Shown here: positions 4,968 through 57,615 of the stretch, piece by piece
Layout of the letters: each line of letters opens with the position of its first letter
How positions within the stretch are numbered: position 1 is the first letter of the stretch
DNA from: Nesterenkonia lutea
GTDB lineage: Bacteria > Actinomycetota > Actinomycetes > Actinomycetales > Micrococcaceae
Assembly (NCBI RefSeq): GCF_014873955.1
Contig: NZ_JADBED010000001.1
Location: forward strand, 248,001 to 312,000
DNA: 64,000 nt
Direction of reading: 5' to 3'
The notes under the pieces: generated by a model
Databases searched by the model: none
Told to the model about the DNA's origin: nothing
The model's input: only the letters and a program-made list of their open reading frames with translations
Made by a program: the position numbers and the translations under genes

Positions 4968-4984
4968 AGGGAAATGCTCCCCGG

Positions 4985-4990: not shown

Positions 4991-5053
4991 GAGCGGCGAG
5001 AACCGTTGTGATGATGAGTTGTGATGATGACCGGCAGGAGGCTGTGGCTGACC

Positions 5054-35818: not shown

Positions 35819-35825
35819 GATTCCC

Positions 35826-35914: not shown

Positions 35915-36014
35915 TCAATGTCTTCAGCGGCTTCCGGGTCTCGGACCCGCGCCCGCCAGCGGGATCATTCTCTGGGTGGATGATCTGCCCCTCTCCAGTT
36001 CTTACACTCAGAGC

Positions 36015-39116: not shown

Positions 39117-39144
39117 TCACACGGCATTGACAAAGGAGTCAGCC

Positions 39145-39985: not shown

Positions 39986-41515
39986 ATGCGCACAGCACGA
40001 GAAACCTCATCGGTGAGGCAGGGGCCGACCCGTCCCCCGCTGCGTCCACTCGAGCGCGCCTCGGCCACTGCAGATGAAGACGGCTTCGACCTGATCGCCC
40101 TGGGTCGGCGGGTGCGTCATCTGCGCAAGCAGGCAGGACTGACCCTGGATGCGCTCGCGGAGTCCCTCGGCACAGCACCGAGTCAGCTCTCTCTGCTGGA
40201 GAACGGTCGACGCGAGCCCAAACTCTCCCAGCTGCAGCAGCTGGCCAAGGTGCTCCACGTCAGCGTCGACGACCTCTTCGGCGCTGAGCCGCCCTCGAAG
40301 CGCGCGGCCCTGGAGATCGAGCTGGAGAAGGCTCAGCGCGGTCCGCTCTATGCGGCGCTGAACCTTCCCACCGTGCGGATCGGCTCTCGGCTGCCCATGG
40401 ACGTCCTGCAGTCGCTGGTGGCTCTGCAGGGTGAGCTGCGCCGTCGTCTGGAGGAACAGGCGGCGACTCCCGAGGAGGCGCGCCGGGCCAACACCGAGCT
40501 GCGCGAAGAGATGCGCGCCAGGAACAACTACTACCCCGAGATCGAGGCGGCCGCCCAGGAGCTTCTGGATGCCGTGGATCACCGGGACGGTCCGCTCTCT
40601 CATCACGTGGTGGCAGACATTGCGGCGCACCTGGGCTTCTCGCTGCGCTTCGTGCCGAACCTGCCGGAGTCCACGCGTTCGGTCACCGATCAGAAGAACC
40701 GGATCATCTACCTCACCCAGGGAAGCTCCCGGCAGTGGGACGCCCGGTCGGTGCTGCTGCAGGCGCTGGGTCACCAGGTGCTGGGTCACACCGAGCCGGG
40801 TGATTATTCGGAGTTCCTGCGTCAGCGGGTCTATACCAACTACTTCGCGGCGAGCCTGCTGATGCCCGAGGCCACCACGGTGCGCTTCCTCAAGGAGGCC
40901 AAGTCACGCAAGGAGCTGGCCATCGAGGATCTGCGGGATGCCTTCGCGGTGTCCTATGAATCGGCCGCCCACCGGTTCACGAATCTCGCCACCGAGCATC
41001 TGGGCATCACCTGCCATTTCCAGAAGGTCCATGAGTCCGGCATCCTGCACAAGGCCTATGAGAACGACGGGGTGAACTTCCCCGCCGATCACTCCGGGGC
41101 CATCGAAGGTCAGACCATCTGCCGACAGTGGACCTCCCGCCAGGTCTTTGACGTGGATGACAAGTTCCGCTCCTTCCATCAGTACACCGACACCACGGTG
41201 GGGACCTTCTGGTGCACGGCACGCACTGAGGCACACTCCTCCGGGGTGTATTCGCTCTCGATCGGAGTGCCCTTCGACCACGTGAAGTGGTTCCGCGGAT
41301 CCGACACCACCTCGCGCTCGGCCTCGCGCTGTCCAGAGGACCCCACCTGCTGCCGCCAACCCCCGGCCGAGCTCGCCGTTCGTTGGGAGGGCAAGGCATG
41401 GCCTGCCGCGCGGGCCAACACCCACCTGCTCGCGGCCATGCCGCAGGGCGCCTTTCCCGGAGTGGACACCACCGAGGTCTACGAGTTCTTGGAACGCCAC
41501 ACACGGCAGGACTGA
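39986..41515 (+). CDS. RamB-like XRE-family regulator with IrrE/ImmA and DUF2083-type domains
   Basis: A 509-residue cytosolic transcription factor. The XRE HTH is near the N-terminus (VRHLRKQAGLTLDALAESLGTAPSQLSLLENGRREP, about residues 45-80). An IrrE/ImmA-like peptidase-fold domain follows (about 195-340). A C-terminal sensory domain contains cysteines (TFWCTARTEAH, SRCPEDPTCC). The peptidase motif is GHQVLGH instead of HExxH, so the general-base Glu is missing and it is a sensor, not a protease. This is the architecture of Corynebacterium RamB, which controls aceA/aceB and acetate genes; a role here is inferred from adjacency to aceA. ATG follows TAAACT (leaderless). Confidence 0.87.
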   Translation: MRTARETSSVRQGPTRPPLRPLERASATADEDGFDLIALGRRVRHLRKQAGLTLDALAESLGTAPSQLSLLENGRREPKLSQLQQLAKVLHVSVDDLFGAEPPSKRAALEIELEKAQRGPLYAALNLPTVRIGSRLPMDVLQSLVALQGELRRRLEEQAATPEEARRANTELREEMRARNNYYPEIEAAAQELLDAVDHRDGPLSHHVVADIAAHLGFSLRFVPNLPESTRSVTDQKNRIIYLTQGSSRQWDARSVLLQALGHQVLGHTEPGDYSEFLRQRVYTNYFAASLLMPEATTVRFLKEAKSRKELAIEDLRDAFAVSYESAAHRFTNLATEHLGITCHFQKVHESGILHKAYENDGVNFPADHSGAIEGQTICRQWTSRQVFDVDDKFRSFHQYTDTTVGTFWCTARTEAHSSGVYSLSIGVPFDHVKWFRGSDTTSRSASRCPEDPTCCRQPPAELAVRWEGKAWPAARANTHLLAAMPQGAFPGVDTTEVYEFLERHTRQD

Positions 41516-41555
41516 TCGCCGGGTCCGGCAGACGAATCCTCACTGACTTCCCTCA

Positions 41556-41570
41556 GATTGTTGAACAATC
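41556..41570. promoter_or_regulatory. GATTGTT-G-AACAATC operator before pxpA
   Basis: A perfect seven-base dyad around one base, 70 bases upstream of pxpA. Near-identical dyads occur before the NRAMP-like gene at 49845 and 49869. It is the form of a GntR-family operator, and the GntR/FCD gene at 46113 is the obvious candidate. Confidence 0.7.
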
Positions 41571-41639
41571 CTCTGGCGTCAGGCATCCTTGACTCAACTC
41601 ACACTGAGACGTGGGCAACATCAGTCCAAGGAGGATCAC

Positions 41640-42410
41640 GTGGCACAGATCGACCTGAACAGTGACGTCGGAGAGTCCTTCGGCAACTGGACCATCGGCG
41701 ACGACGCGGCGATCCTGCGCACCGTCTCGAGCGCGAACATCGCCTGCGGCTTCCACGCCGGGGACCCGCTGACCATTCGTGCCACCGCCACGGAGGCAGC
41801 GGCCAACGACGTCGTCATCGGGGCTCACATCGGCTACCGCGACCTGGCCGGCTTCGGTCGACGGCATCTGGAATGTTCCCCCGATGAGCTCGCCGCCGAT
41901 GTGCTCTACCAGCTGAGCGCCCTGGAAGGAATCGCCTCGGCGGTCGGCTCACAGGTCCGGTATGTGAAGCCCCACGGCGCCCTGTACCACTCGATGATCT
42001 CCCACACCGGGCACGCCCATGCCGTCATCGACACCATCGCGGCCTACTGCGAGAGCACCGGACGCGACCTGCCCGTGCTGCTGCTGCCGGGTTCCATCGC
42101 CCTGGACTACGCTGCGGAGGCCGGTCTGCGCGGGGTCTCCGAGGCCTTCGCCGATCGCAGCTACAACCCTGACGGCACGCTGGTCTCCCGGCGTAAGCCC
42201 GACGCGGTGCTCCATGACACCGAGCAGGTCGTGGAGAACATGCTGCGCCTGGCCGAGGAGTCGGTGCTGATCGCTCGCGACGGCACCCGCATCGAGACCC
42301 AGGCCGAGTCCATCTGCACCCATGGCGATACGGCCGGGGCGGTGGCGATGGCGCAGTCGGTGCGCTCAGCACTGGAGGGCGCCGGAGTCGAGATCCGGAG
42401 CTTCGCATGA
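41640..42410 (+). CDS. pxpA: 5-oxoprolinase subunit A (LamB/YcsF family)
   Basis: A 256-residue LamB/YcsF protein. The N-terminus IDLNSDVGESFGNWTIGDDAAIL and SANIACGFHAGDPLTI are family signatures, and VRYVKPHGALYH is a later one. PxpA acts with PxpBC to hydrolyse 5-oxoproline to glutamate using ATP. The start is GTG 41640 behind a strong AAGGAGG. It overlaps pxpB as ATGA, so translation is coupled. It is the first gene of pxpA-pxpBC-carboxylase, downstream of a GATTGTT dyad. Confidence 0.94.
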   Translation: MAQIDLNSDVGESFGNWTIGDDAAILRTVSSANIACGFHAGDPLTIRATATEAAANDVVIGAHIGYRDLAGFGRRHLECSPDELAADVLYQLSALEGIASAVGSQVRYVKPHGALYHSMISHTGHAHAVIDTIAAYCESTGRDLPVLLLPGSIALDYAAEAGLRGVSEAFADRSYNPDGTLVSRRKPDAVLHDTEQVVENMLRLAEESVLIARDGTRIETQAESICTHGDTAGAVAMAQSVRSALEGAGVEIRSFA

Positions 42411-44212
42411 TCAGCGCCATCCGCGAGGCTGGTCCTCGCGCGCTGCTGCTGGAGTTCGAGACCCTGGACCAGGTGCTGGCCTGCCATCAGCAGCTGCGCC
42501 GGGAGCCCCTTGCCGGTCAGGTCGAGGCGGTGGCCGCGGCACGCACCATCCTGCTGCGCTTCACCGCCCGGTTCGCCCTCCGCGAGGCGCGCCAGCAGCT
42601 GCCCAGCCTTGAACTGGGAGAGTTCTCGGCCGCAGACTCGCGCCGCGTGGAGCTGGAGGTCGTCTACGACGGCGAAGATCTGCCCGATCTGGCCTCTCAC
42701 CTGGCGATGAGCGTCCAGGCGCTGATCAACTGGCACAGCGGAACAACCTGGGCCGGCGCCTTCGGTGGCTTCGCCCCGGGATTCACCTACTGCGTGCCCA
42801 GCACGACTCCCGATGCTGCGGCCCTCGGCAACGTCGGTCCACTCGATGTGCCGCGCCGCAGCAGTCCACGCACGGCCGTGCCCGCCGGCGCCGTCGCCCT
42901 TGCCGGCGAATTCTCCGCGGTCTACCCGCGCGTCTCCCCAGGGGGCTGGCAGCTGATCGGACACACCCCGGCGACCATGTGGGACCTCTCCCGGGAAGCC
43001 GACGGCGAGTCCCCGGCGCTGGTCCGCCCGGGCGACTCGGTGCGGTACAAGCCCGTGACCGCCCGGTCAGTGACCAGCGAAGCCACCGCTCAGCCCGAAG
43101 CCCCGAGCCAGCAGGACTCCCGCCCGGACCACGACGTCGCGCTCACCGTCCTCGACCCGGGACTGCAGACCCTGATCCAAGACTTCGGCCGCAGCGGGTT
43201 CAGCGACCTCGGAGTCTCCCGCGCGGGGGTCGCCGACGAGGACGCGGCGCGCCAGGTGAACAGACTTCTCGGCAATGCTCCACAGGCGGCCGTGCTCGAG
43301 ACGCTGTACGGCGGAGTCAGCCTGCAGGCCGAGACCACCGTGGTGCTCGCGGTCGCCGGCGCACAGGTGACGCTGGACGTCACCGCCCCCGAGGGATCCA
43401 GCCGACGCGTGCGGCTGGGCGCCCCCTTCGCCCTCACCGCAGGAGAGACCCTGACCCTCGGCGCCCCCGAGTGGGGACTGCGCAGCGTGATCGGGCTGCG
43501 CGGAGGCATCGCTGCCACCCCGGTCCTGGGCAGCGTCTCCGCCGACACCATGTCCGGACTGGGCCCCGATCCGCTGGCGCCCGGAGACCAGCTCCGGACT
43601 GCCGGCACTGCCACGGGCGCCGTCGCCGCTGCGGAGCCCCAGAACCGCCGGGCGCAGGACCCCTCCTCCGAGGGCCAGTCCGCCCTGCGTTTCACCTATG
43701 GCCCGCGCGCAGACTGGTTCAGCACCGAGGAGGCGGTGCGGCTGGCGGCTCAACCCTGGGTGGTGAGCCGGTCATCAAACCGGATCGGGATTCGACTCGA
43801 GGTCCCCGAGGACGATGCGGCGCAGGGGGCCGAGAACTCTGCGCACAGGGCCCAGAACTCTGCGCCGGGGGCCCAGGACGAGGCGCCGCGACCGCTGCGC
43901 CGGCTCAAGGAGGGTGAGCTGCCGAGCGAGGGAGTCGTCCGCGGCTCGCTGCAGATGCCGCCATCGGGCACCCCAGTGCTGTTCCTCAACGACCACCCGG
44001 TGACCGGGGGGTATCCCGTGATCGGCGTCGTCATCGACGAGGACCTCCCCCTCGCGGCGCAGCTCGCCCCTGGAGACCAGATCACCCTGGTCTCGGTGGA
44101 CCCCGAGACGCTGGCCCCGCCGCAGCATCCCTCCGCTGACTCCGCTGAACCGGCTGAACCCGCTGACCCGGCAGCGCCGACGCCCCAGACCACCGCGACC
44201 CCTGACGCCTGA
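42407..44212 (+). CDS. Fused 5-oxoprolinase subunits B and C (PxpB-PxpC)
   Basis: A 601-residue fusion. The PxpB/KipI part (about residues 1-215) has SAIREAGPRALLLEFE, the FGGFAPGFTYC signature near residue 120 and GGWQLIGHTP. The PxpC/KipA part (about 235-601) has LTVLDPGLQTLIQDFGRSGFSDLGVSRAGVADEDAARQVNRLL, then VIGLRGGI and LRFTYGPRADWF. A Gln/Ala-rich insertion (about residues 470-490) and a Pro/Ala tail are low-complexity. With PxpA it cleaves 5-oxoproline at ATP expense. B and C are separate genes in E. coli and Bacillus. It is followed after 15 bases by the biotin carboxylase gene. Confidence 0.92.
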   Translation: MISAIREAGPRALLLEFETLDQVLACHQQLRREPLAGQVEAVAAARTILLRFTARFALREARQQLPSLELGEFSAADSRRVELEVVYDGEDLPDLASHLAMSVQALINWHSGTTWAGAFGGFAPGFTYCVPSTTPDAAALGNVGPLDVPRRSSPRTAVPAGAVALAGEFSAVYPRVSPGGWQLIGHTPATMWDLSREADGESPALVRPGDSVRYKPVTARSVTSEATAQPEAPSQQDSRPDHDVALTVLDPGLQTLIQDFGRSGFSDLGVSRAGVADEDAARQVNRLLGNAPQAAVLETLYGGVSLQAETTVVLAVAGAQVTLDVTAPEGSSRRVRLGAPFALTAGETLTLGAPEWGLRSVIGLRGGIAATPVLGSVSADTMSGLGPDPLAPGDQLRTAGTATGAVAAAEPQNRRAQDPSSEGQSALRFTYGPRADWFSTEEAVRLAAQPWVVSRSSNRIGIRLEVPEDDAAQGAENSAHRAQNSAPGAQDEAPRPLRRLKEGELPSEGVVRGSLQMPPSGTPVLFLNDHPVTGGYPVIGVVIDEDLPLAAQLAPGDQITLVSVDPETLAPPQHPSADSAEPAEPADPAAPTPQTTATPDA

Positions 44213-44227
44213 GAGAAGAACCTCACC

Positions 44228-46042
44228 ATGAAGCGCATCCTGATCGCCAACCGCGGCGAGATCGCCGTCCGCATCATCCGCAGCGCGCGGGAATCCGGCT
44301 ACGTCGCCGCGGCGGTCTACGCCGATCAAGACGCCGACGCGCTGCACGTCCAGCTGGCCGATGACGCGGTGGCGCTGCACGGGACGACCCCGGCGCAGAC
44401 CTATCTGGACCAGCAGAAGCTCCTCGCGGCCGCCCTCCAGGTCGACGCCGACGCGATCCACCCCGGCTACGGGTTCCTCTCCGAGAACGCCGACTTCGCC
44501 CGCGCCGTCATCGAGGCTGGACTGACCTGGATCGGCCCGAAGCCCGAGACCATCGAATCCCTCGGGAACAAGGTCACCGCCCGGGCGCTGGCGGTCAAGG
44601 TCGGCGCCCCGCTGGTTCCAGGCACGGACGGTCCGGTCGCCGATGGCGAGGAGATTCGTGAATTCGTGGCCGAACACGGGCTGCCCGTGGCGATCAAGGC
44701 CGCCCACGGCGGGGGCGGGCGCGGCATGCGCATCGTCCGTGAGGAGGCCGAGATCGACGAGGCCTTCGCCTCTGCAGTGCGCGAGGCCGAGTCCGCCTTC
44801 GGTCGTGGGGAGTGCTTCGTGGAGCGGTTCCTGGACCGGCCCCGGCACGTGGAGGCCCAGGTCCTGGCGGACACGCACGGCAACGTCGTCGTTGTCGGCA
44901 CGCGGGACTGCTCGCTGCAGCGGCGCAATCAGAAGCTGGTCGAGGAGGCGCCCGCGCCGTTCCTCAGCGACGATCAGCGCGCCGACATCCACCGCTCCGC
45001 CCGGGCGATCTGCGCCGAGGCCGGCTACGTCGGGGCCGGGACCGTGGAGTATCTGCTCAGCCCGGGCCAGGGGGACCGGCCCGGACTGCTCAGCTTCCTG
45101 GAGGTCAACACCCGGCTGCAGGTGGAGCACCCGGTCACCGAGGAGACCTCCGGGGTGGACCTGGTGGCCGAACAGCTGCGCATCGCCGAGGGCGAGCCGC
45201 TGCGCCTCACGGAGGATCCGCAGCCGCGAGGCCACTCAGTGGAGTTCCGACTCAACGCCGAAGAGCCGGCCCAGGGCTTCCTACCCACCCCGGGTCCGGT
45301 GGAGCTCTTCGCTCCCCCCACGGGGCCCGGCATCCGGGTGGACACCGGCGTGCGCAGCGGTGATGAGATCTCCGGGGCCTTCGACTCGATGCTGGCCAAG
45401 CTCGTGGTCACCGGCCCGGACCGGCCCACCACGCTGCGCCGCGCCCGTATGGCGCTGGCCGAGATGCGCATCGAGGGTCTGCCAACCGTGCTGCCGTTTC
45501 ACCGTCAGGTGCTCGAGGCCGAGGACTTCCTCGCCGCCGAGGGCGAGGACAGCTTCACAGTCCACACGCGGTGGATCGAGACCGAGTTCGAGGCCGCCTA
45601 TGGGGAGTCCATGGCCGAGTCCGAGCATCTCGCCGCCGCGCTTCGTCACCGCAAGCATCGAATGCACCGCACCACCGTGGAGATCGACGGCCGCCCGGTC
45701 ACCCTCGGGCTGCCGGGGGCTCTGCTGAGCCTGCTGGGCAGCGGCACCGGGACAGGTCCCGACAGCCAGAGAGGCTCCGGCAGCGGGACAGGCGAGGACG
45801 AGGAGGCGGACCCCCGCGTCGGAGCGGCACCCGGGGCCGTGGCGTCGAAGCTGGCAGGCAGCCTGGTCAGCTTCTCCACCGCGGACGGCGCCCAGGTCTC
45901 CGCCGGAGACCCGATCGCCGTGGTGGAGGCGATGAAGATGGAGTCCACCGTGGCCGCCCCGCGCAGCGGACGCTTCATTCGCGCCGATCTCGCGCCCGGC
46001 GCGGCGCTGCAGGCCGGCCAGCTCCTCGGCACCATCGAATGA
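44228..46042 (+). CDS. Biotin carboxylase-BCCP (acyl-CoA carboxylase alpha-type subunit)
   Basis: A 604-residue fusion. The biotin carboxylase domain (about 1-450) starts [23 protein letters not shown] and has the ATP-grasp loop [13 protein letters not shown] and [18 protein letters not shown] variable linker follows (about 505-535), then a C-terminal biotinyl domain with Lys570 in VEAMKMEST. It carboxylates biotin, but no carboxyltransferase is in this cluster. Its position after pxpABC mirrors clusters in other bacteria where AccB/AccC-like genes travel with YcsF/KipI/KipA. It might serve the accD at 1073 or an undefined step in oxoproline or urea-derivative use. Confidence 0.9.
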
Positions 46043-46112
46043 GAGACCGAACCCACCTGTGACGTGCAGGTGCAGTGTCTGGCCCGATCGCTGTCTCGAC
46101 TAGGTTGGTGTC

Positions 46113-46790
46113 ATGACCGACGTGTTGTGGAGCTCCTTGTCTGCCGAGGGCCTGAGGGAGCACGCGCATGCCCCGGAGCGGGTCGCGGAGCTGCTGCGCG
46201 GAGCCATCGCGGCCGGGGCGATCCGTCCGGGCACCAAGCTGCCGGAGGTCCAGCTGACCCGTCAGCTGGACATCTCCCGGCACACGCTGCGCAGCGGATT
46301 CCAGATCCTCGCCGCCGAAGGGCTCGTGGAGCGCCATCCCAACCGGGGGGTGTTCGTGCACCAGCCCACCGCGGCAGACATCGCTGAGATCTATCGGGTG
46401 CGCCGGGTGCTCGAGGTCGGTGCGGTGCGCACCGCGGAGTTCCCCGCAGAAGAGCTGGAGCAGCTGCACCGGGTGGTCTCCGCCGCGGAGGTGGCGAGGG
46501 ATCGCGGGGACGTCCCTGCGATGGCCCAGGCCAACCAGGTGTTCCACCGGACCATCGCGGCTCAGGTGCGCAGCGCGCTGATCGATGCACTCATGGAACA
46601 GGTCCTGGCACGGATGCGACTGGCCTTCCACGCGAAATCCGAGCAGCCCAGCTTCCATCACACCTTCATCGAGCGCAACCGGGAGCTGGCCCGGCTGCTC
46701 GGCGAGGGAGACCGGCAGGCGGCGGAGGACTACCTGGTGGACTATCTCGCCGCCGCCGAGGCTGAGCTGCTGGACCACCTGGGAGGCTGA
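46113..46790 (+). CDS. GntR-family regulator, FCD (FadR) subfamily
   Basis: A 225-residue repressor. The N-terminal winged HTH is RVAELLRGAIAAGAIRPGTKLPEVQLTRQLDISRHTLRSGFQILAAEGLVERHPNRGVFV (quoted only to residue ranges ~23-82 for the domain). The all-helical FCD effector domain follows (about 90-215), with Asp/His metal-type residues (NQVFHRTI, SFHHTFIERN). It is probably a dimer that binds the GATTGTT-N-AACAATC dyads before pxpA and the NRAMP-like gene, with oxoproline or a related acid as ligand; this is inference. ATG 46113 follows TAGGTT by six bases. It lies downstream of the carboxylase gene and has its own promoter. Confidence 0.88.
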   Translation: MTDVLWSSLSAEGLREHAHAPERVAELLRGAIAAGAIRPGTKLPEVQLTRQLDISRHTLRSGFQILAAEGLVERHPNRGVFVHQPTAADIAEIYRVRRVLEVGAVRTAEFPAEELEQLHRVVSAAEVARDRGDVPAMAQANQVFHRTIAAQVRSALIDALMEQVLARMRLAFHAKSEQPSFHHTFIERNRELARLLGEGDRQAAEDYLVDYLAAAEAELLDHLGG

Positions 46791-46794
46791 CCGG

Positions 46795-47505
46795 TCAGCT
46801 CAGGCGCTTGGTCCCGACGTAGACGGTGTTTGAGGAGGTGCCCCCGGTGAGGTGGTTGGCGAACTCCACGATATGGGCCCGGCAGTCATCGAAGACCGAA
46901 GCGAGGATGGTCATGAACTCCTCGTCCGGCGGGTCATCGGACCACAGGGTGAAGACCCCGTGCTCACCGAGGTGCTTCGCCAGGGCGGTCAGCCCCTCGG
47001 TGGTGTAGAGATCCGCGTGGCTCGGGTGAAGCGTGTGCCGCGGTGAATGGTCGACGTCGAGCAGGATGACGTCATGGAGGGGCGAACCAGCTTCGGGCGG
47101 CCGCCGCACCACCGCGAAGAAGTCATCGTGGCGCAGAGTCGTCCGCTCGTCCTCGACCAGCTGACTCGAGACCGGGAGCAGCTTGCGCTGGTGCCAGTCG
47201 ATGACGGCTGGGAGAGCGTCGATGACCTGCAGCCGGTGCACCCGCTCATCGCCGAGTGCTGTGACCGCTGTGTAGCCCAGGCCGAGGCCGCCGACGAGCA
47301 CGTCGAGCTTCTCGCCCGTGGCCGCGGCGAGGCCCAGGGTCGACATCTGCTCCTCGGCCACGGTGAACAGGCTCGACATGAGGAACTCCTCGCCCAGCTT
47401 CACCTCATAGATCTGCGTGCCCGTGCCGGGCTCGGTGCGCCGACGCAGCATCAGCTCGCCCATCGGGGTCTGCTGCCAGTCAAGCTCTTCGAACCGTGCG
47501 ATCAT
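46795..47505 (-). CDS. Spermidine-synthase-like (SAM-fold) protein
   Basis: A 236-residue Rossmann-fold protein. TQIYEVKLGEEFLMSSLFTVAEEQMSTLGL resembles the N-terminal part of spermidine synthase-like proteins. LDVLVGGLGLGYTAVTAL is the nucleotide-binding glycine loop. DVILLDVDHSPRHTLHP occupies the aspartate position. The usual aminopropyltransferase GGGDG loop is altered, so it may bind SAM or dcSAM without making spermidine. It converges with the GntR gene five bases apart and lies upstream of an ABC exporter on the minus strand. Confidence 0.8.
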   Translation of the reverse strand: MIARFEELDWQQTPMGELMLRRRTEPGTGTQIYEVKLGEEFLMSSLFTVAEEQMSTLGLAAATGEKLDVLVGGLGLGYTAVTALGDERVHRLQVIDALPAVIDWHQRKLLPVSSQLVEDERTTLRHDDFFAVVRRPPEAGSPLHDVILLDVDHSPRHTLHPSHADLYTTEGLTALAKHLGEHGVFTLWSDDPPDEEFMTILASVFDDCRAHIVEFANHLTGGTSSNTVYVGTKRLS

Positions 47506-47536
47506 GCGGATGCCTCTCCTTCGGGGGGGGGCGGAC

Positions 47537-49405
47537 TCAGGAGTCCTCGGTGGCGAACTGGGTCCGGTAGAGCTCGGCGTAGCGCCCGTCGGCCGCCAGC
47601 AGCTTGGAGTGCGTGCCGCGTTCCACGATCTGGCCCGCCTCGACCACGAGGATCGCGTCGGCGGCGCGCACCGTGGAGAGCCGGTGTGCGATCACCAGCG
47701 CGGTGCGTCCCACCAGCGCCTCGGTCAGCGCGGCCTGTACGGCGGCCTCGGAGGTGGAGTCCAACGCGGCGGTGGCCTCATCGAGGATCACCACCTGGGG
47801 CTGGGCCAGCAGCAGCCGGGCCAGGGTCATCCGCTGGCGCTCTCCGCCGGAGAGTCGATAGCCGCGTTCCCCGACCACGGTGTCCAGCCCATCGGGCATG
47901 GAGTGGACCACCGATTCCAGCCGGGCCCTGCGGATGGCATCCCAGATCTGCGCGTCGGTGGCCCCGGGGGAGGGCAGGGTGAGGTTGGCGCGGATGGTGT
48001 CGTGGAAGAGGTGTCCGTCCTGGGTGACCACGCCCAGGGAAGCGCGCAGCGAGGCGAAGGTGGTGTCGCGGACGTCCACTCCGGCCAGGCGCACCGATCC
48101 GGAGTCGACGTCATAGAGCCGTGCCAGCAGGGCGGCGATGGTGGACTTGCCGGCTCCTGAGGAGCCCACGATGGCGACTGTCTGCCCGGGCTCCACGCGC
48201 AGGCTGACGCCGTGGAGGACCTCTTCGCCACCGCGCTGGTCCAAGGTCGCGACCTCCTCCAGCGAGGCGAGTGAGACCTTCTCCGCAGACGGGTAGGAGA
48301 AGGTGACCTCGTCGAACTCCACGGCGGCAGGGCCCTCCGGCAGCGGCTCGGCGTCCTCCTTCTCTGTGATCAGCGGCTTGAGGTCCAGCACCTCGAAGAC
48401 TCGCTCGAAGCTGACCAGAGCGCTCATCACTTCCACCCGAGCGCTCGCGAGGGCGGTCAGCGGCGCATAGAGGCGGGTGAGCAGCAGCGCCAGGGAGACG
48501 ACCGCCCCGGCTTCGAGATCGCCGACGATGGCGTAGAAGCCGCCCAGGCCGTAGACCAGGGCGAGGGCCAGTGCGGAGACCAGGGTCAGCGCGGTGACAA
48601 AGGTGGACTGCAGCATCGCGGTCTTGACCCCGATGTCCTGCACGCGCCGGGCGCGCCGCTCGAATTCGGCGGACTCCTCCTCGGGACGCCCGAAGAGCTT
48701 GATCAGCGTGGCGCCCGGGGCGGAGAAGCGTTCAGTCATCTGAGTGCCCATGGTGGCGTTGTGGTTCGCCGCCTCGCGCTGCAACACTGCCAGTCGGCTG
48801 CCCATGAGGCGGGCAGGCAGCACGAAGACCGGCAGCAGCACCAGGGCCAGCAGGGTGACCTGCCAGGACAGTGAGAGCATGGCGATGAAGGTGAGGACGA
48901 CCATCACCAGGTTCCCGACGACGCCGGAGAGGGTGCCGCTGAAAGCGCGCTGCGCCCCGATGACATCGTTGTTCAGCCGGCTCACCAGCGCGCCGGTGCG
49001 GGTGCGGGTGAAGAAGGCGATGGGCATCTTCTGCACGTGGTCGAAGACTGCGGTGCGCAGATCAAGGATCAGACCCTCACCGATCCGTGATGAGAGCCAC
49101 CGGCTGAGGATGTTGAACCCCGCATCGGCGACGGCGATGATCGCGATCAGCACGGCCAATCGGATGACGACCTCGACAGCGGCCGAGCTGGTGATCGCAT
49201 TGACGACCTGTCCAGCCAGCAGCGGAGTCGCCACCGCGAGCGCGGCGGTGACCACCGAGAGGATCAGGAACCAGATCAGCCGGGTCCGGTGGGGGCTGGC
49301 GAACTGGCCGATGCGAGTCAGCGTCTCCCGGTTGAGCGGCCGATAGTCCTTCTTCGCATGGGTCATGCTGTACAGCGAGCCCCATGCCGCGCGTTCCATG
49401 CTCAC
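47537..49405 (-). CDS. ABC-type multidrug/lipid exporter (fused permease-ATPase)
   Basis: A 622-residue half-transporter. The type I exporter membrane domain (six helices, about 30-320) is followed by an ATPase domain (about 365-620). Visible motifs are Walker A VGSSGAGKST, Q-loop VTQDGHLF, signature LSGGERQRM, Walker B VVILDEATAALD and H-loop IAHRLS. The substrate is unknown; relatives export drugs or lipids as homo- or heterodimers. GTG 49405 (MSMERAAWGSLY) is chosen by family appearance, with ATG 49366 (MTHAKK) as the alternative. No clear Shine-Dalgarno is seen at any candidate. Confidence 0.9.
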   Translation of the reverse strand: MSMERAAWGSLYSMTHAKKDYRPLNRETLTRIGQFASPHRTRLIWFLILSVVTAALAVATPLLAGQVVNAITSSAAVEVVIRLAVLIAIIAVADAGFNILSRWLSSRIGEGLILDLRTAVFDHVQKMPIAFFTRTRTGALVSRLNNDVIGAQRAFSGTLSGVVGNLVMVVLTFIAMLSLSWQVTLLALVLLPVFVLPARLMGSRLAVLQREAANHNATMGTQMTERFSAPGATLIKLFGRPEEESAEFERRARRVQDIGVKTAMLQSTFVTALTLVSALALALVYGLGGFYAIVGDLEAGAVVSLALLLTRLYAPLTALASARVEVMSALVSFERVFEVLDLKPLITEKEDAEPLPEGPAAVEFDEVTFSYPSAEKVSLASLEEVATLDQRGGEEVLHGVSLRVEPGQTVAIVGSSGAGKSTIAALLARLYDVDSGSVRLAGVDVRDTTFASLRASLGVVTQDGHLFHDTIRANLTLPSPGATDAQIWDAIRRARLESVVHSMPDGLDTVVGERGYRLSGGERQRMTLARLLLAQPQVVILDEATAALDSTSEAAVQAALTEALVGRTALVIAHRLSTVRAADAILVVEAGQIVERGTHSKLLAADGRYAELYRTQFATEDS

Positions 49406-49567
49406 GCACAAACCCCCAAGATCTCCGGTGATGCCGCGCTGGCTGCCACGGCACCGTTGTCAGCACAAGAGACAACCCACGTCACGCTACTCGCATTCCG
49501 GCAGCCCCCTCGCCCCAGAGCGGCCGACCCTTGGGCGTCGCCGGACCACTGACGTAGTGTCGCTGCC

Positions 49568-49798
49568 ATGGATCTTGATCCCATGTCGGTGCTGTTCCTG
49601 CTCTTCGGTCTGGCGGCCGTCGCCGTCGTCGTGGGGTTCATCGTGATCGCGCTGATCCAGGTGCTCCGCGAGCCTCTGCTGCCGCCGGCGCTGCGGATGT
49701 GCTGGGTGATCGTCCTGATTGCTCTTCCGATCCTCGGCACGCTCGTCTGGTTCGTCTTCGGGCAGAGCATCAATGAGCGGATCCTCTCTGCGATCTGA
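49568..49798 (+). CDS. Small PLDc_N-domain membrane protein
   Basis: A 76-residue protein with two hydrophobic helices (about residues 6-32 and 43-66). It resembles the N-terminal membrane domain of cardiolipin synthases (PLDc_N), with MCWVIVLIALPILGTLVWFVFG as the core. Stand-alone copies are common in actinobacteria, with unknown role. ATG follows TAGTGT by nine bases, suggesting a leaderless or very short leader. Confidence 0.8.
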   Translation: MDLDPMSVLFLLFGLAAVAVVVGFIVIALIQVLREPLLPPALRMCWVIVLIALPILGTLVWFVFGQSINERILSAI

Positions 49799-49844
49799 CG
49801 CCAGGTCCGGCCTGGGGATGTGACAGGCGTGTAAAAGGTGGGCC

Positions 49845-49859
49845 GATTGTTCCACAATC
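49845..49859. promoter_or_regulatory. GATTGT-TCC-ACAATC operator (first of a tandem pair)
   Basis: Six-base perfect arms, very close to the pxpA dyad. It starts 24 bases before the second dyad, i.e. on nearly the same face of the helix (about 2.3 turns). Confidence 0.65.
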
Positions 49860-49868
49860 CCTTGCCTG

Positions 49869-49882
49869 GATTGTTGAACAAC
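49869..49882. promoter_or_regulatory. GATTGTTGAACAAC operator (second of a tandem pair)
   Basis: It shares GATTGTTGAACAA with the dyad before pxpA. It lies about 100 bases before the NRAMP-like gene. Confidence 0.65.
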
Positions 49883-49979
49883 AGTACTGTGATCGGTGAT
49901 CCACGGAATAGACGTGCGTCACACGTGCACTGCGCACAGTGCCGCCGCTGTTTCCCCTACTGACCCACGGAGGGCTCCT

Positions 49980-51290
49980 GTGGCTGACGCCTCAACCCCC
50001 AGATCGTCTTCAGCAGATGCACCCCACACCCCCGAGACCCACGGGCCAGATTCGAACGGGCCAGATTCGAACGGGTCGGATTCGAACGGGCCGGTGCTGA
50101 TCCGGACCCGCCGAACCGCGCTGCTCGGGGCGATGTTCCTGATGGCCACCAGTGCCGTGGGCCCGGGCTTCATCACCCAGACCGCCACGTTCACCTATCA
50201 GCTGGGAGCCGCCTTCGGCTTCGCGATTTTGATCTCGGTGCTGGTCGACATCGCTGTGCAGCTCAACGTCTGGCGGGTGCTCGGGGTCTCCGGGCTCTAC
50301 GCCCAGACCCTGGGCAACCGCATCCTGCCCGGCCTGGGCTGGGCGCTCGCGGCACTGATCTTCTTCGGCGGCGTGGTCTTCAACATCGGCAACATCGCCG
50401 GCGCCGGCCTGGGCCTCAACGCCATGACCGGCATGGACGCCCGCATCGGCGGTGCGCTCTCGGTGATCCTCGCGCTGCTGATCTTCCTCTCCAAGAAGGC
50501 CGGGGTCGCGCTGGACCGGATCGTGGTCGGCTGTGGCGCCGTGCTGATCCTGCTGATGATCTTCATGGCCGTCACCACTGCCCCGCCGCTGGGGGAGGCG
50601 CTGCGTCAGACCTTCGTGCCCGACCAGGTGGAGTTCCTGGTGATCACCACGCTGATCGGCGGCACCGTCGGCGGCTATATCACCTATGCCGGCGCCCACC
50701 GGCTCATCGCCTCGGGCAACACCGGGGTCGAGAACGTCAAGGCGATCTCGCAGACCTCGGTGCTCGGGATCATCGTGGCCACCGTCATTCGCTTCCTGCT
50801 CTTCCTGGCGATCCTCGGGGTCGTCTCCACCGGTGCGGTCCTGGCGGAGGACAACGTCGCGGCAGATGCCTTCTCGGTGGCTCTCGGAGAGATCGGTCTG
50901 CGCGTCTTCGGTGCGGTCTTCTGGGTCGCCGCGATCACCTCGATCCTGGGCTGCACCTACACCACGGTGTCCTTCCTGACCACGGAGAACACCAAGGACC
51001 GCACGAAGAACTGGTACTTCCTCGGCTTTCTGGTGCTCACCAGCGGGGTCTTCCTGCTGCTCGGCCAGGCGCCGCAGACCCTGCTGATCATGGCGGGCGC
51101 GTTCAACGGCACTGTGCTCCCGCTGGGATTCGCGGTGATCCTCTACGCCGCATGGCGCCGCCGGGACCTGCTGCAGGGCTATAGGTACCCCAAGTGGCTG
51201 CTCATCCTCGGCGTCCTGGTCTGGCTGCTGACCATCTTCATGGGCTACAGCTCGCTGGGCGGTCTGGCCAGCCTCTGGACCGAAGGGTGA
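49980..51290 (+). CDS. NRAMP-fold carrier lacking the canonical metal-binding motif (YcsG-like)
   Basis: A 436-residue integral membrane protein with about 11 helices of the NRAMP/SLC11 fold. The TM1 motif reads [13 protein letters not shown] where metal transporters have DPGN. The TM6 region reads [16 protein letters not shown] rather than MPHN. The Mn/Fe ligands are therefore absent, and an organic substrate is more plausible. Bacillus ycsG, a similar NRAMP-like gene, sits with ycsF (pxpA), ycsI (DUF1445) and kipI-kipA. The N-terminal tail has GPDSN repeats. The start is GTG 49980 behind GGAGGG. It overlaps the DUF1445 gene as GTGA. Confidence 0.82.
50040..50092 (+). repeat. 15-bp tandem repeats in the NRAMP-like gene
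   Basis: The unit ACGGGCCAGATTCGA recurs about 3.5 times, encoding [10 protein letters not shown] in the cytosolic N-terminal tail. Confidence 0.85.
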
Positions 51291-52111
51291 TCCCGCCGGA
51301 CACAGGCTTCACCCCCGGAGGGGCGCCGCTGAACCCCGCCGCAGCCCGCGCACGCTTCCGTGCCGGGCTGCGGCGGCCCACCAGCGGGATCAGCCCGGGC
51401 TTCGCCCAGGTCAACCTGCTGGCGCTGCCGCGTGAGCTGGCCTTCGACATGCTGCTCTTCGCGCAGCGCAACCCGAAGTCCTGTCCGGTGCTGGGCGTCT
51501 TCGAACCGGGCCAGCACGACGACGCCGGCATCGCACACCCATTGCTGGCCGAGGGTGACCTCCGCACTGATCTCCCCGCCTACCGGGTCTACCGCGACGG
51601 CGAGCTCATCGCTGAACCCGATGACGCCACCGCGCACTGGCGCGAGGATCTGGTCGCCTTCCTGATCGGGTGCAGCTTCACCTTCGAAGCCCCGCTGCTG
51701 GAGGCCGGAATCCCGATCGCCCATATCGAGCAGGGCGTGAACGTGCCGATGTACACGACCGCCATCCGCTGCGCACCGGCGGGCCGGCTCCGCGGCCCTC
51801 TGGTGGTGTCCATGCGTCCGCTGCCGGCGGATCAGATCGCCGACGCCGTGCGGATCACCTCACGCTACCCAGGAGTCCACGGCGCCCCGGTGCACATCGG
51901 CAGTCCCGCAGCACTCGGAATCGATGACCTCGCCTCCCCGGACTTCGGGGATCCGGTGGAGATCCCCGCAGGCTGGACGCCGGTCTTCTGGGCCTGTGGG
52001 GTCACCCCGCAGGCGGAGGTGATGGAGTCCAAGCCGGAGCTGGCGATCAGCCACGCGCCGGGGCACATGCTGATCACCGACCTGCCCGACGCCCAGCTTC
52101 AGGTGCCGTGA
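51287..52111 (+). CDS. DUF1445 putative hydro-lyase (D-glutamate-cyclase-related, YcsI-like)
   Basis: A 274-residue soluble protein. It has [63 protein letters not shown] and [13 protein letters not shown], and ends with [31 protein letters not shown], all typical of DUF1445. The C-terminal C-G-V-T-P-Q and HxPGHM motifs are the conserved active-site-like parts. The related domain is found in vertebrate D-glutamate cyclase (D-glutamate to 5-oxo-D-proline). Beside oxoprolinase genes this supports a glutamate/oxoproline reaction, but the bacterial activity is inference. Its GTG start overlaps the carrier stop. Confidence 0.88.
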
Positions 52112-52161
52112 CACAGCCCTTCGGAGCTGTCAGTGCTCGTGAGGCACTGGAGCGCGGTCCC

Positions 52162-53442
52162 TCAGGGGCGCTGTGGGCCGGGGGCCGCGCCGTCGTCGTC
52201 CTTGGCCCGCGGACCTGAACGAGGGATTCTGCGCGGGACCCCCTGGAGCACGTCGTGGCGACCGTGGACCAGCCAGTACAGGATCAGCGCGACGACGACC
52301 ACGCCTGCGCAGGCGCCATACATGAAGCGATAGTCAGCGAAGCCGACCAGCGGTCCCAGCAGCAGCGGGGAGAAGCCGAAGCCGGTGTCGAGCATGATGA
52401 AGAAGGTCGAGATCCCGATGCTCGTGCGGTGGGCGGGCAGGTCCGAGGCGATGATCGCCTGCAGCACCGGCAGCAGCGAGCCGAACCCGAAGCCGGCCAG
52501 CACCCCGGCGGTGAGCAGGACGCCCTGGTTGGGTGCCCACGCCAGCAGTCCCATGGCCACGATGTAGAAGATCACGGCGGGGTACACGGCGAGGTTGTCC
52601 CCGTAGCGGTCTTGGATCCTGCCCATGAACAGGCGCGACACCAGGACAGCACCGGCGTAGATCACGAAGAACAGCGAGGCCGCGTCCACCATGTCGAGGC
52701 TGCGGGCATAGCCGTTGAGGAAGGTCATCACCGAGGCGAAGCCGATGCCCAGCAGCATCGCCACCAGGGAGATCTTGAACGCGCGCGGCTCGATGATGTC
52801 CCGAGGGCGCAGCGTCAGCTTCTCCCGCAGGCTGGTCCGCCAGGGTCTGTCCTCGGGGAGCTTGAGGAACAGCACCGCGATCAGTCCGAAGACGGAGACG
52901 ATGGTGACCGCCACGAACATCGCCCAGAAGTCATAGCGCTGAGTCAGCTGGATCGCGGCCAGCGGCCCGATCGCCGGGGGCAGGGAGTTGGCGAGCAGAT
53001 AGTATCCGGCGCCCTCACCGCGGCGGGAGGCGGGGATCATCGCGAAGACGCCGGCGTTGAGCGCGGTCTGTCCGAAGCCGAAGGAGATCCCGTGCACGGC
53101 GCGCAGCGCGATGAGCATCTCGTAGCTGTCCACCCAGAGGTACGCCAGGCCGGCGAGGACATAGACCACCAGGCACGCCAGCACAGTGCGGCGCCGACCC
53201 AGGAAGTTCACGTACTTGCCCGCGAAGACCCGCGCACCCAGGGCGCCGACAACGAAGGCCGAGGCCGCGAACCCGGCGGCAGTCTCACCGGCGGCGAACT
53301 CCTCGGCCGCGTAGACCGCCAGCCCGGTCACCAGCACGAAGAAGACGATGGCCAGGAAGAGATTGATGACGATCGCCAGCAGGAAATCTTTGGTGAAGAG
53401 CGGCTCCTTCGGCGTCGCCGCGGGGTGCTTGTTCTGGGCCAT
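52162..53442 (-). CDS. MFS transporter
   Basis: A 426-residue 12-helix major facilitator. The loop 2-3 motif is GKYVNFLGRRRTVL, close to the MFS G-x-L-x-D-R-x-G-R/K signature. RAVHGISFGFGQTALN is the TM4 motif, and a second-half motif is SRLFMGRIQDRYGDN. It resembles arabinose-efflux/drug permeases. ATG 53442 is used; GTG 53445 adds one residue. A GATTGTT half-site lies nine bases upstream, which may link it to the oxoproline regulon, weakly. The cargo is unknown. Confidence 0.88.
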   Translation of the reverse strand: MAQNKHPAATPKEPLFTKDFLLAIVINLFLAIVFFVLVTGLAVYAAEEFAAGETAAGFAASAFVVGALGARVFAGKYVNFLGRRRTVLACLVVYVLAGLAYLWVDSYEMLIALRAVHGISFGFGQTALNAGVFAMIPASRRGEGAGYYLLANSLPPAIGPLAAIQLTQRYDFWAMFVAVTIVSVFGLIAVLFLKLPEDRPWRTSLREKLTLRPRDIIEPRAFKISLVAMLLGIGFASVMTFLNGYARSLDMVDAASLFFVIYAGAVLVSRLFMGRIQDRYGDNLAVYPAVIFYIVAMGLLAWAPNQGVLLTAGVLAGFGFGSLLPVLQAIIASDLPAHRTSIGISTFFIMLDTGFGFSPLLLGPLVGFADYRFMYGACAGVVVVALILYWLVHGRHDVLQGVPRRIPRSGPRAKDDDGAAPGPQRP

Positions 53443-53549
53443 CACAGGCCGATTGTTTCATGGTTCGCAGAAGAAACGACCGAAGGGCGAGCGGAGATCG
53501 GCATGGTGCAGATCACAGCGCGGCGGGCGCCGTATGGGACCCTGGTGGG

Positions 53550-54851
53550 ATGATCCACAGTGTCCGGGAGATGGGACAGCGAGCTCTCCTCATCGAGCTC
53601 GCCACCGAGAAGGACCGCCCCCACCTCTCGGCACATCTCCGGCAGAGTCCCCTCCCCGGTCAGGTGGAAGTGATCCCCGGCACCAGAACGGTGCTGGTGG
53701 ACTTCCGCCGACGCCGGGACGCCCTCGCGGCGATGAAGCTCGCCAAGCGGCTGAAGGTGCGCCGGCGCCGGGACGCCGATGCCGAGCAGGACGCACCGGA
53801 GACCGCGGACGGTGGCCTGATGACCCTGCCCGGGTCCTTCGCGCCGTGCCTGGGGCTGGATGACCGTGAAGCGGTGGTCGAGGTGCTCGACGTCGGCGGA
53901 CGACCAGACCGGGTGCTCGTCCAGGACATGGGCCGCTTCGGCTTCGGTGAGGCAGGCGTTGGCAGATCGGGGTCCGTGGATCTCGTCGCGGCGCGCCAGG
54001 CCAACCGGCTCGTGGGCAATGACGATTCTGCCGCGGTCTTCGAGGTCCGCTCGGGCGAACTCAGCCTGCGGATCTGGCAGACCTCGATCCTGGCCGCAGC
54101 CGGAGCCGAGGTCTCCATGGAGATCATCACCGAGGAGCTCGTGCCGATCTCCCGCGGCGGGACCGATGCCGCGAGGACCGCTTCCCGTTCCCGCGCGGTC
54201 CCGGTGCGAGCGCCCTTCTGGGTCTTCCCCGGGGAGACGCTGCGGCTGGGTCCGGTGCAGCGCGGGGTCTACGCATACCTGGGGATCTCCGGGGGACTCG
54301 ACGCCCCCCTCCGCCTGGGCAGCGCCTCCACCGATCTGGGTGCCCGGATCGGCCCCGCTCCCGTCCAGCCGGGCCACCGCTACGCTCTTGCCGGGGCGGC
54401 CTCGCGGTTCGTGGGCATCGCCTCGGTGGCGCCCACTCCGCTGCCGCCGCTCGATGCCCCCACCGTGCTCCGCTACGTGCCGGGACCTCGTGAGGAGTAC
54501 TTCGGCACCCGCCGGGCTGCAGCTGCGGGACTCTCCCGTCTGGAGGGCCAGCCCTGGGAAGCCATGGAGCCCTCGGGCCGCGCCGGTCTCCGGCTGGACG
54601 GCGACGATCCGATCCGTCGCACACAGTCCGAGCCGCTGGCCGCGGAGCCGCTGATCCGCGGGGCCATCTGCGTCTGCGCCGCGGGCCAGCCGACGATCGC
54701 GCTCGCCGAGCATCCGGTCACGAGCACCGACCCCGTGCTCGGAGTCGTGGTGCGAGAGGATCTTGCCCTGGTCGCGCAGCTGCGTGCAGGCGCGCAGGTC
54801 AGATTTCAGGCCGTGGATCCCGAATCGCTGGGGGCCGTGCGGCCTCGATGA
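53550..54851 (+). CDS. PxpC-like protein with a vestigial PxpB N-terminal stub
   Basis: A 433-residue protein. Residues 1 to about 75 (MIHSVREMGQRALLIELATE) match the first domain of PxpB, but the FGGFAPGF-containing second domain is missing. A short basic linker (KLAKRLKVRRRRDADAEQ) leads to a PxpC/KipA domain (about 110-430) with VLDVGGRPDRVLVQDMGRFGFGEAGVGRSGSVDLVAARQANRL and LGISGGL. It is a divergent paralogue of the 42407 gene. It may be a regulatory or alternative-substrate subunit, or a decaying duplicate. ATG 53550 is weakly supported by GGTGGG. It is divergent from the MFS gene. Confidence 0.8.
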   Translation: MIHSVREMGQRALLIELATEKDRPHLSAHLRQSPLPGQVEVIPGTRTVLVDFRRRRDALAAMKLAKRLKVRRRRDADAEQDAPETADGGLMTLPGSFAPCLGLDDREAVVEVLDVGGRPDRVLVQDMGRFGFGEAGVGRSGSVDLVAARQANRLVGNDDSAAVFEVRSGELSLRIWQTSILAAAGAEVSMEIITEELVPISRGGTDAARTASRSRAVPVRAPFWVFPGETLRLGPVQRGVYAYLGISGGLDAPLRLGSASTDLGARIGPAPVQPGHRYALAGAASRFVGIASVAPTPLPPLDAPTVLRYVPGPREEYFGTRRAAAAGLSRLEGQPWEAMEPSGRAGLRLDGDDPIRRTQSEPLAAEPLIRGAICVCAAGQPTIALAEHPVTSTDPVLGVVVREDLALVAQLRAGAQVRFQAVDPESLGAVRPR

Positions 54852-57350: not shown

Positions 57351-57367
57351 ATCAATGCCACGTCCCC

Positions 57368-57615
57368 TGTGTGGGAGAGTCCGGCCGGTGTCCACGGAGC
57401 GCAGAGCTTCTGCAGACACCCGGGTCGGCGCCGAAGGAGCAATATCCTCCCCGGGAACCTCTCAGGCACTCAGTACCGTGCAGGGGTGGCAACTCTGGAA
57501 AGCAGCACGTCAGGTCCCCGGCCCGACGCGCTCACCCAAGGTGCAAGCCGGTCCGAGCCGTCCAGGCGGCGGTGACCGGTGAATCTCTCAGGTCCATCAC
57601 AGAGCGGGGGAGGAA
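57368..57615 (+). promoter_or_regulatory. Tandem glycine riboswitch
   Basis: Two aptamers in series. The first carries GGGAGAG, GCCGAAGGAGCAA and ACCTCTCAGGCA (about 57372-57500). The second carries CTCTGGAAAG, CACCCAAGGTGCAAG and GAATCTCTCAGG (about 57491-57612). These are the conserved glycine-binding cores, linked by a short linker as in cooperative tandem riboswitches. The RNA precedes gcvP and should switch it on at high glycine. The second aptamer reads CACCCAAGGTGC, slightly off the usual CCGAAGGGGC. Confidence 0.9.

Follow-up and report, generated by a model that had tools for sequence, protein, structure and literature searches.

The use of 5-oxoproline has been described most closely for Corynebacterium glutamicum, where growth on this compound was reported to need both the carrier gene pxpT and the 5-oxoprolinase genes pxpABC; deletion of pxpT abolished such growth, and the defect was complemented (PMC13274462). 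According to the same report, the GntR protein PxpR represses pxpTABC from the operator agattgttcaacaatct; expression of a reporter rose 6.5-fold when this site was mutated or deleted. PxpR binds 5-oxoproline with a dissociation constant of 726 nM but showed no binding of L-proline, L-glutamate, L-glutamine or L-aspartate, and the account of its ligands does not mention D-glutamate. In this study, a locus of Nesterenkonia lutea was compared with that system. It lies in a window of 64,000 nucleotides, positions 248,001 to 312,000 of contig NZ_JADBED010000001.1, in a genome of 2.96 Mb (coordinates below are those of the window, and L-numbers are labels of compared loci). By analogy with C. glutamicum, the locus is very probably a PxpR-controlled 5-oxoproline regulon; this degree of confidence covers the regulon and not the biotin-dependent step considered further below. 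Its features are as follows (BC, biotin carboxylase; BCCP, biotin carboxyl carrier protein).

41556..41570, forward strand: candidate PxpR operator O1, GATTGTTGAACAATC, from dyad scans; overlaps the predicted pxpA -35 box and equals the core of the reported C. glutamicum site exactly (PMC13274462)
41561..41566, forward strand: predicted pxpA -35 box, TTGAAC, within dyad O1, from conservation across 68 distinct pxpA dyad regions
41584..41589, forward strand: predicted pxpA -10 box, CATCCT, spacer 17, from conservation across the same 68 regions
41640..42410, forward strand: pxpA, LamB/YcsF family (LamB_YcsF), 5-oxoprolinase subunit A, from family matches
42407..44212, forward strand: pxpBC, fused 5-oxoprolinase subunits B and C (CT_C_D and CT_A_B) with a urea-carboxylase-type carboxyltransferase fold, from domain and fold matches
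44228..46042, forward strand: BC with BCCP and an AMKM biotin site, an AccA-type alpha subunit within the pxp operon, from domain matches, motif and tree
46113..46790, forward strand: pxpR, GntR/FCD regulator, last gene of the pxpA operon, from family matches
46795..49411, reverse strand: insert separating the two operons, a spermidine-synthase-like gene (46795-47505) and an ABC exporter (47537-49411), from locus comparison
49845..49859, forward strand: candidate PxpR operator O2, upstream of the carrier -35 box, from dyad scans
49862..49867, forward strand: predicted carrier -35 box, TTGCCT, between O2 and O3, from conservation in 50 tandem regions
49869..49883, forward strand: candidate PxpR operator O3, filling the -35/-10 spacer 24 bp from O2, from dyad scans and locus comparison
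49885..49890, forward strand: predicted carrier -10 box, TACTGT, spacer 17, from conservation in 50 tandem regions
49896..51290, forward strand: pxpT, NRAMP-like carrier (the open reading frame (ORF) opens at 49896), from a family match
51287..52111, forward strand: DUF1445 protein (PF07286, Pfam name D-Glu_cyclase), 274 amino acids, from a family match

All genes of the pxpA operon lie on the forward strand, with a 4-base overlap of pxpA and pxpBC followed by gaps of 15 and 70 bases, and the GTG start of the DUF1445 gene overlaps the pxpT stop codon. The true start of pxpT is probably GTG at 49980, behind GGAGGG, which would give a protein of 436 amino acids; C. glutamicum PxpT is also reported to have 436 residues (PMC13274462). 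Domain searches confirmed the gene content proposed in the initial annotation of this DNA, namely pxpA, fused pxpBC, BC-BCCP, the GntR/FCD regulator, the NRAMP-like carrier and DUF1445, and family and locus comparison showed that the regulator encoded alongside the pxp genes belongs to the GntR family and carries a sensor domain at its C-terminus. PxpA, PxpB and PxpC are all present with their family-specific residues; two NCBIfam PxpA subfamily cut-offs were reached, and the fused protein missed the PxpB and PxpC equivalog cut-offs. The putative reaction of PxpABC here is the ATP-dependent conversion of 5-oxoproline to glutamate.

The operator agATTGTTcAACAATct stands ahead of the pxp genes, and the dyad pattern of the window matches the C. 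glutamicum PxpR operator exactly. Three dyads matching GATTGTT-N-AACAATC had been noted previously; all were found at their places, with no mismatch in O1 and one in O2, though the third (49869) differs from the motif at two positions. When up to three mismatches were allowed, the window held four matches against 0.32 expected, and none of 100 shuffles gave four. The whole-genome scan returned 18 places at this threshold and only the three reported sites at up to two mismatches, and the reversed control pattern matched 4 places. Among 61 genomes of the family, searched at up to one mismatch, the dyad was matched in 37 and the reversed control in one. The gene group of the carrier is separate and had been put about 4 kb away; the first carrier dyad lies about 3 kb past the regulator gene (46790 to 49845).

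Conservation of the dyad was followed in two sets of loci. For the first, picked without regard to the dyad, 58 genomes including our own were searched for pxpA-family genes; 49 genomes besides our own gave matches, and the stretches around these made up 54 loci. The second comprised 80 named loci found via the carrier. The sets share four stretches (L102/L077, L103/L074, L104/L064 and L153/L066), and near copies or close kin occur among the loci (L172/L175, L134/L141, L155/L157); thus, their dyad counts are not independent. Broken genes can also count twice (pxpA of L085 and L118). The footprint count covers loci other than L001-L032, which are short, and L087-L101, which are second stretches of genomes already counted, and the upstream stretch is absent from it for two first-set carriers and seven second-set pxpA genes.

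In the first set, a dyad preceded pxpA in 21 of 23 cases with pxpR in the locus and BC nearby (the broken gene of L085 counted twice; the misses are L056 and L066), and in only 1 of 31 in loci without pxpR, the exception being L061, whose contig ends ahead of the expected pxpR. BC is present in four of these 31 (L044, L051, L054, L086). The single pxpA with pxpR but no BC (L049) lacks the dyad, which sits at the carrier instead. For the carrier, the dyad was found in 13 of 16 cases with pxpR, L056, L064 and L075 being the misses (in L075 it lies just outside the counted stretch), and in 0 of 1 without pxpR; all nine carriers with two dyads have them spaced by 24. The second set gave 61/71 for the carrier with pxpR and 6/10 without pxpR in the stretch examined, and, for pxpA, 47/53 with pxpR and BC, 2/4 with pxpR and no BC, and 1/4 without pxpR; the first two dyads were 24 apart in 25 of 30 pairs. 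Of 200 dyads, 7 fall outside the counted stretches (4 of 49 in the first set, 3 of 151 in the second). Six of these seven lie at a carrier start (L072 and L074 seen via the overlapping L089 and L090), and that of L170 about 1.4 kb before pxpA. Five control dyads, run on both sets, gave 0, 0, 0, 0 and 2 hits. The presence of the dyad ahead of pxpA and of the carrier thus goes with the presence of pxpR in relatives, and the pattern holds across Micrococcaceae, Microbacteriaceae, Brevibacteriaceae and Corynebacteriaceae.

Both promoters may be read from the same alignments. In 50 distinct tandem regions, picked for a dyad spacing of 24, the carrier promoter keeps the order dyad, -35, dyad, -10: CTTGC is conserved between the dyads, with TTGC at 86-98% per position as the -35 box, and TA..gT follows the second dyad, with TA...T at 84% per position as the -10 box. 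The spacer is 18 in most relatives and 17 in 8 of the 50 regions, which resemble the window. Of 68 distinct pxpA dyad regions, 63 have G as the centre base of the dyad, and therefore TTGAAC within it would be the -35 box; GCATnCT follows, with the -10 box 17 bases on (offsets 27-30 and 32-33 at 69-84%). A simple consensus scan of 41300-52200 returned no promoter, so that both predictions rest on conservation. Since the dyads are in register with the -35 and -10 boxes at both promoters, repression by promoter occlusion is likely. In some relatives (e.g. L115, L121, L158), a TGTGAC..GTCAC-like palindrome, seen by eye and uncounted, lies downstream of the carrier -10 box and resembles a CRP/GlxR site; a predicted GlxR site near the pxpT -10 box is reported for C. 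glutamicum (PMC13274462).

In the proposed mechanism, PxpR on the three dyads would block two promoters, a dimer on O1, or on O2 and O3, covering the promoter: at pxpA the dyad would cover the -35 box, and at the carrier one dyad would lie upstream of the -35 box and the other fill the spacer to the -10 box. 5-Oxoproline, either made internally or imported by the NRAMP-like PxpT, would release PxpR and switch on both the uptake genes (pxpT-DUF1445) and those of hydrolysis to glutamate (pxpA-pxpBC-BC/BCCP), and pxpR, placed inside its own operon, would act as a brake through the expected self-repression. The roles of PxpR as a repressor and 5-oxoproline sensor, and of PxpT as needed for growth on 5-oxoproline, are carried over from C. 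glutamicum and should be taken as such. A point against such a transfer is that the window PxpR is only 36-40% identical to the regulators of loci with a C. glutamicum-like layout, C. glutamicum PxpR itself being outside the comparison. The scheme of the initial annotation, in which one GntR/FCD regulator, sensing an acid, serves one operator and two gene groups for the use of 5-oxoproline, agrees with the restriction of the dyad to these sites in the genome, and with the operator match, the 5-oxoproline-binding repressor and the PxpT precedent of C. glutamicum (PMC13274462); it was right in its main lines and, because of that system, in another organism and with another layout, largely known.

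The split layout, which had been left unexplained, is a branch-specific insertion. In Nesterenkonia L069, L070, L073, L075 and L080 both operons are directly consecutive on one strand, and in the window and eight sister genomes the spermidine-synthase-like gene and the ABC exporter lie between them; because the operons adjoin in the former and carry the insert in the latter, the insertion is placed in one branch, and the insert, exporter included, probably lies outside the regulon. Among 63 named loci with BC in the stretch examined, the pxpA operon faces the carrier operon in 56, shares its strand in 4 and lies head to head with it in 3 (L115, L118, L128); 17 further loci show no BC. Of the 56 facing loci, 39 have a gap to pxpR of 27-290 bases and 14 one of 541-7128; in 3, no pxpR lies between. 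L115 and L118, both head to head, carry two PxpR-like genes each, of which one separates pxpA from the carrier and the other follows DUF1445.

A separate problem is the carboxylase, which the initial annotation also left without a role; it possibly provides the biotin arm of an enzyme resembling urea carboxylase. The parts of a biotin-dependent carboxylase, i.e. BC, a BCCP with a biotin site and a partner with a carboxyltransferase fold, are all present, and a structure search matched PxpBC to the carboxyltransferase of urea carboxylase/amidolyase. BC adjoins 87 of 115 PxpABC rows, and the biotin lysine is found in all 82 full-length BC-BCCP proteins (79 AMKM, 3 MKT). PxpB and PxpC are fused in 82 of the rows with BC and split in 5 (3 of them broken frames in L085 and L118), and fused likewise in 16 of 28 rows without BC. 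The PDB entry 9yx5 is described as holding Mycobacterium smegmatis AccA3 together with PxpB/C homologues (MSMEG_0435-0436); no paper behind it was among the matches listed. A 2011 study, as reported, left open whether urea-carboxylase-type transferase domains lacking a urea-carboxylase BC use other BCs (PMC3199775), and among the listed matches in open-licence literature, outside which most subscription journals fall, no title or abstract dealt with a biotin-dependent 5-oxoprolinase.

We tentatively propose, at somewhat less than even confidence, that PxpABC and an AccA-type BC-BCCP form a biotin-dependent 5-oxoprolinase of the urea amidolyase kind. BC-BCCP would spend ATP in making carboxybiotin. 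From there the carboxyl group would be transferred by PxpBC onto the lactam nitrogen of 5-oxoproline, in the way that urea is carboxylated by urea carboxylase, and the ring thus activated would be opened by PxpA; on this reading ATP would not serve phosphorylation. As part of the same tentative proposal, the BC would be encoded by the operon itself here and lent by a housekeeping carboxylase elsewhere. Either a BC is used by every PxpABC enzyme, being a shared one where there is no dedicated gene, or BC is auxiliary.

Several observations weigh against the biotin step. In the BC tree (where six rows marked 'other' are pxp-linked and one is BCx), the pxp-linked BCs do not form one clade, and the housekeeping clade falls among them. 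The close kin Arthrobacter L134 and L141 keep pxpR, the dyads, PxpA and fused PxpBC, with no BC in the stretch examined, whereas L054 has BC and PxpABC but neither pxpR nor a dyad in the 20 kb examined; the BC partner thus occurs independently of PxpR control. For C. glutamicum, which grows on 5-oxoproline, the description of the pxpTABC cluster names no BC; in print, phosphorylation by PxpB/C is assumed, the use of ATP by PxpABC being likewise assumed rather than shown (PMC13274462). Finally, PxpBC proteins with and without a neighbouring BC share the Pxp-specific residues.

The latter comparison included 82 PxpBC rows with BC (81 for the PxpB part), 29 without (28) and 22 of the urea-carboxylase family (21), with L049, L085, L086, L118 and L121 excluded, along with the truncated second copies of L102 and L103 and any domain hit shorter than 230 residues. 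Against the urea-carboxylase family, 50 columns were flagged as Pxp-specific (18 in PxpC, 32 in PxpB). With few exceptions, D380, R434, E504, S507, E508 and H530 are common to PxpBC with and without BC, whereas the urea-carboxylase family differs; in the PxpB part the same holds for H110, W115, the F119-Y128 motif and R150. Since these residues are shared, a PxpBC with a BC neighbour is by sequence an ordinary PxpBC. At the set thresholds, only columns 38, 43 and 120 separated the two groups. Column 120 is G in 77/81 rows with BC, 21/21 urea carboxylases and 14/28 rows without BC; at column 43 rows with BC and urea carboxylases disagree. A carboxylation signature specific to PxpBC with BC was therefore rejected, one weak column (120) being all that was found. 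Its absence weighs against a special chemistry of the enzymes with BC, and not against a chemistry common to all. On a rough PxpA tree with long branches (109 rows, FastTree), the presence of BC needs 7 changes.

An alternative to which we give the same weight as to the biotin-dependent reading is that PxpABC phosphorylates 5-oxoproline and that BC-BCCP is a bystander carboxylase whose induction accompanies that of glutamate catabolism, e.g. an acyl-CoA carboxylase alpha subunit. The BC-less loci L134 and L141 with their regulon kept, the C. glutamicum cluster with no BC named and the missing active-site signature all suit this alternative, and the contact of PxpB/C with an acyl-CoA carboxylase indicated by entry 9yx5 could be regulatory. 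On the other hand, in Micrococcaceae, Brevibacterium, Cryobacterium and Corynebacterium the BC gene is placed between pxpBC and pxpR, the fold of PxpBC is that of a carboxyltransferase, and no acyl-CoA carboxylase beta subunit was detected among the ten window proteins scanned. Moreover, the housekeeping AccA clade (12 rows without pxp neighbours, including L212, the genome's own other AccA-like protein; SH-aLRT 100) leaves the window BC outside, so that the latter does not group with housekeeping acyl-CoA carboxylase alpha subunits. The operon ties PxpBC to its own biotin carboxylase, which makes them a candidate cognate pair for the question of how PxpABC uses ATP, and L134 and L141 are natural test cases for the need of BC.

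It seems unlikely that the carboxylase complex acts on another substrate, such as a urea-like compound, hydantoin or another lactam, with 5-oxoproline as only an inducer or side substrate. Several likely 5-oxoprolinase loci without a BC partner would fit this, as would the BCx type pxpA-BC-pxpB-pxpC, whose members L044 and L051 (n=2) have urea-carboxylase residues at columns 387, 504 and 507, suggesting that PxpA homologues may go with other carboxyl acceptors. However, the 82 PxpBC proteins with BC share their Pxp-specific residues with the 29 without, unlike the 22 of the urea-carboxylase family, and the operator and the regulator type are those of the 5-oxoproline regulon. The BCx type itself (L044, L051, L086, L220) combines pxpA, a BC of about 450-490 amino acids (with no BCCP motif in L051) and split pxpB/pxpC with no pxpR, and L044, L051 and L086 have no dyad. 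In L044 and L051, several columns of pxpB/pxpC show residues like those of urea carboxylase; the type is possibly another lactam or urea-like carboxylase.

Still less probable is a role of the NRAMP-like protein in manganese import, by which it would supply a metal-dependent PxpA, in place of one as a 5-oxoproline carrier. The reported behaviour of Bacillus subtilis YcsG, 50% identical to PxpT, which raised cellular Mn and was renamed MntG as a Mn2+ importer (PMC10448178), speaks for this and against a 5-oxoproline carrier. The complemented C. glutamicum pxpT deletion, which prevents growth on 5-oxoproline (PMC13274462), argues for the import of 5-oxoproline; the initial annotation had proposed this or a related acid. 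In 13 of 16 first-set loci with pxpR, the 5-oxoproline operator precedes the carrier, which in the window has GPGF, as in 93 of 98 related ORFs (five were unmatched by the pattern), in place of DPGN. DPGN is the metal-ligand motif of transmembrane segment 1 (TM1) in metal NRAMPs. A second pattern, meant for TM6, matched 0 of 98 ORFs and was uninformative, and a search of solved structures with the carrier gave no match.

In 66 of 80 carrier loci the DUF1445 gene comes directly after the carrier; 4 others have it at another place on the carrier's strand, and in 10 no hit was obtained. The suggestion that it feeds D-glutamate into the pool found no support: D-glutamate cyclase activity in print belongs to a mammalian two-domain protein, DUF1445 plus a racemase-like DUF4392 (PMC5339696), and the 274-residue window protein has PF07286 only; the Pfam name probably derives from the mammalian protein. 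No test of the DUF1445 domain alone for cyclase activity was among the matches listed. DUF1445 may be linked with D-glutamate or 5-oxo-D-proline, and our best guess is that it handles the D isomer.

Next to this gene lies what is left of a second Pxp system:

52162..53445, reverse strand: MFS carrier of the second, degraded pxp system, from a family match and locus comparison
53460..54851, forward strand: truncated second pxpBC, start possibly ATG 53547, PxpB residues from about 100 on gone and no pxpA alongside
54987-55931: DUF368 gene beside the remnant

The truncated gene lies within the range of the initial annotation, which did not mention it. Loci L035, L040, L041, L042, L046 and L079 have an MFS gene divergent from pxpA-pxpBC-DUF368 (rearranged in L059), with no pxpR, BC or dyad in the locus; L095, L096 and L099 keep MFS and pxpBC with no adjacent pxpA, and in the window and eight sister loci all that is left is MFS, DUF368 and a gene that has lost much of PxpB. 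That the remnant is a decaying pseudogene was rejected: it is open in the eight sister loci L087-L094, with a median ratio of nonsynonymous to synonymous substitution rates of 0.257 (9 sequences, 36 pairs) against 0.242 for pxpBC, and because of both it looks to be under purifying selection. It may have a function other than the normal PxpABC reaction.

The dyad-selected loci of the family included 23 of 30 with pxpA or the carrier within about 1.5 kb of the dyad, and 7 with neither nearby (L235, L243, L245, L253, L254, L259, L260). In L243 the neighbour of an exact PxpR-type dyad is a GntR gene with 35% identity to PxpR, and the 3 kb examined contain no pxp gene; the operator may thus be common to a sister regulator with other targets. 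That the window dyads are due to chance or belong to another GntR regulator, as L243 and the fit of TTGT-N3-ACAA to the general GntR/FCD consensus might suggest, is most improbable given that all three genomic sites at up to two mismatches sit at the two pxp operons, that conservation across families follows pxpR, and that 23 of the 30 loci contain pxpA or the carrier.

Elsewhere in the window, a malate synthase-like ORF (39127-39828, 233 amino acids) directly follows an isocitrate lyase-like ORF and looks cut short, the TIM-barrel model being matched only at positions 13-84 of 248. A bacterial small signal recognition particle RNA lies at 35823-35919 (RF00169, 68.4 bits) and a glycine riboswitch aptamer at 57362-57488 (Rfam RF00504, 49.7 bits).

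Among known systems, urea carboxylase/urea amidolyase resembles the locus in its BC, BCCP and carboxyltransferase parts and a hydrolase acting afterwards, but the pxp chains are separate, their domain order differs and PxpA replaces allophanate hydrolase; no window protein is a single-chain urea carboxylase (BC, carboxyltransferase and BCCP; TIGR02712), the best reaching about 512 bits against 1303.85. The M. smegmatis complex of entry 9yx5 likewise brings an AccA-type BC-BCCP together with PxpC/PxpB homologues, its alpha subunit being described as AccA3 of the long-chain acyl-CoA carboxylase, whereas that of the window is a paralogue within the pxp operon. The B. subtilis operon pxpA(ycsF)-ycsG-ycsI-kipI-kipA with kipR shares the PxpA, NRAMP-like, PxpB and PxpC genes, and is reported to be also under TnrA, CcpA, AhrC and MntR (PMC10448178). 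It differs in having KipR instead of a GntR protein and separate PxpB and PxpC; that ycsI is a DUF1445 gene is a statement of the initial annotation. KipR is of the IclR type, and we know of no BC in the B. subtilis pxp operon. With PxpR-pxpTABC of C. glutamicum the window shares the operator, the GntR repressor type, the NRAMP-like carrier, PxpA, PxpB and PxpC. It differs in the pxpB-pxpC fusion, the added BC-BCCP and DUF1445 genes, the position of pxpR within the regulated operon (there divergent) and the carrier in a second operon with two operators. The regulon thus extends a system described in one organism in 2026, its operator and gene set recurring in Micrococcaceae, Brevibacterium, Cryobacterium and Corynebacterium.

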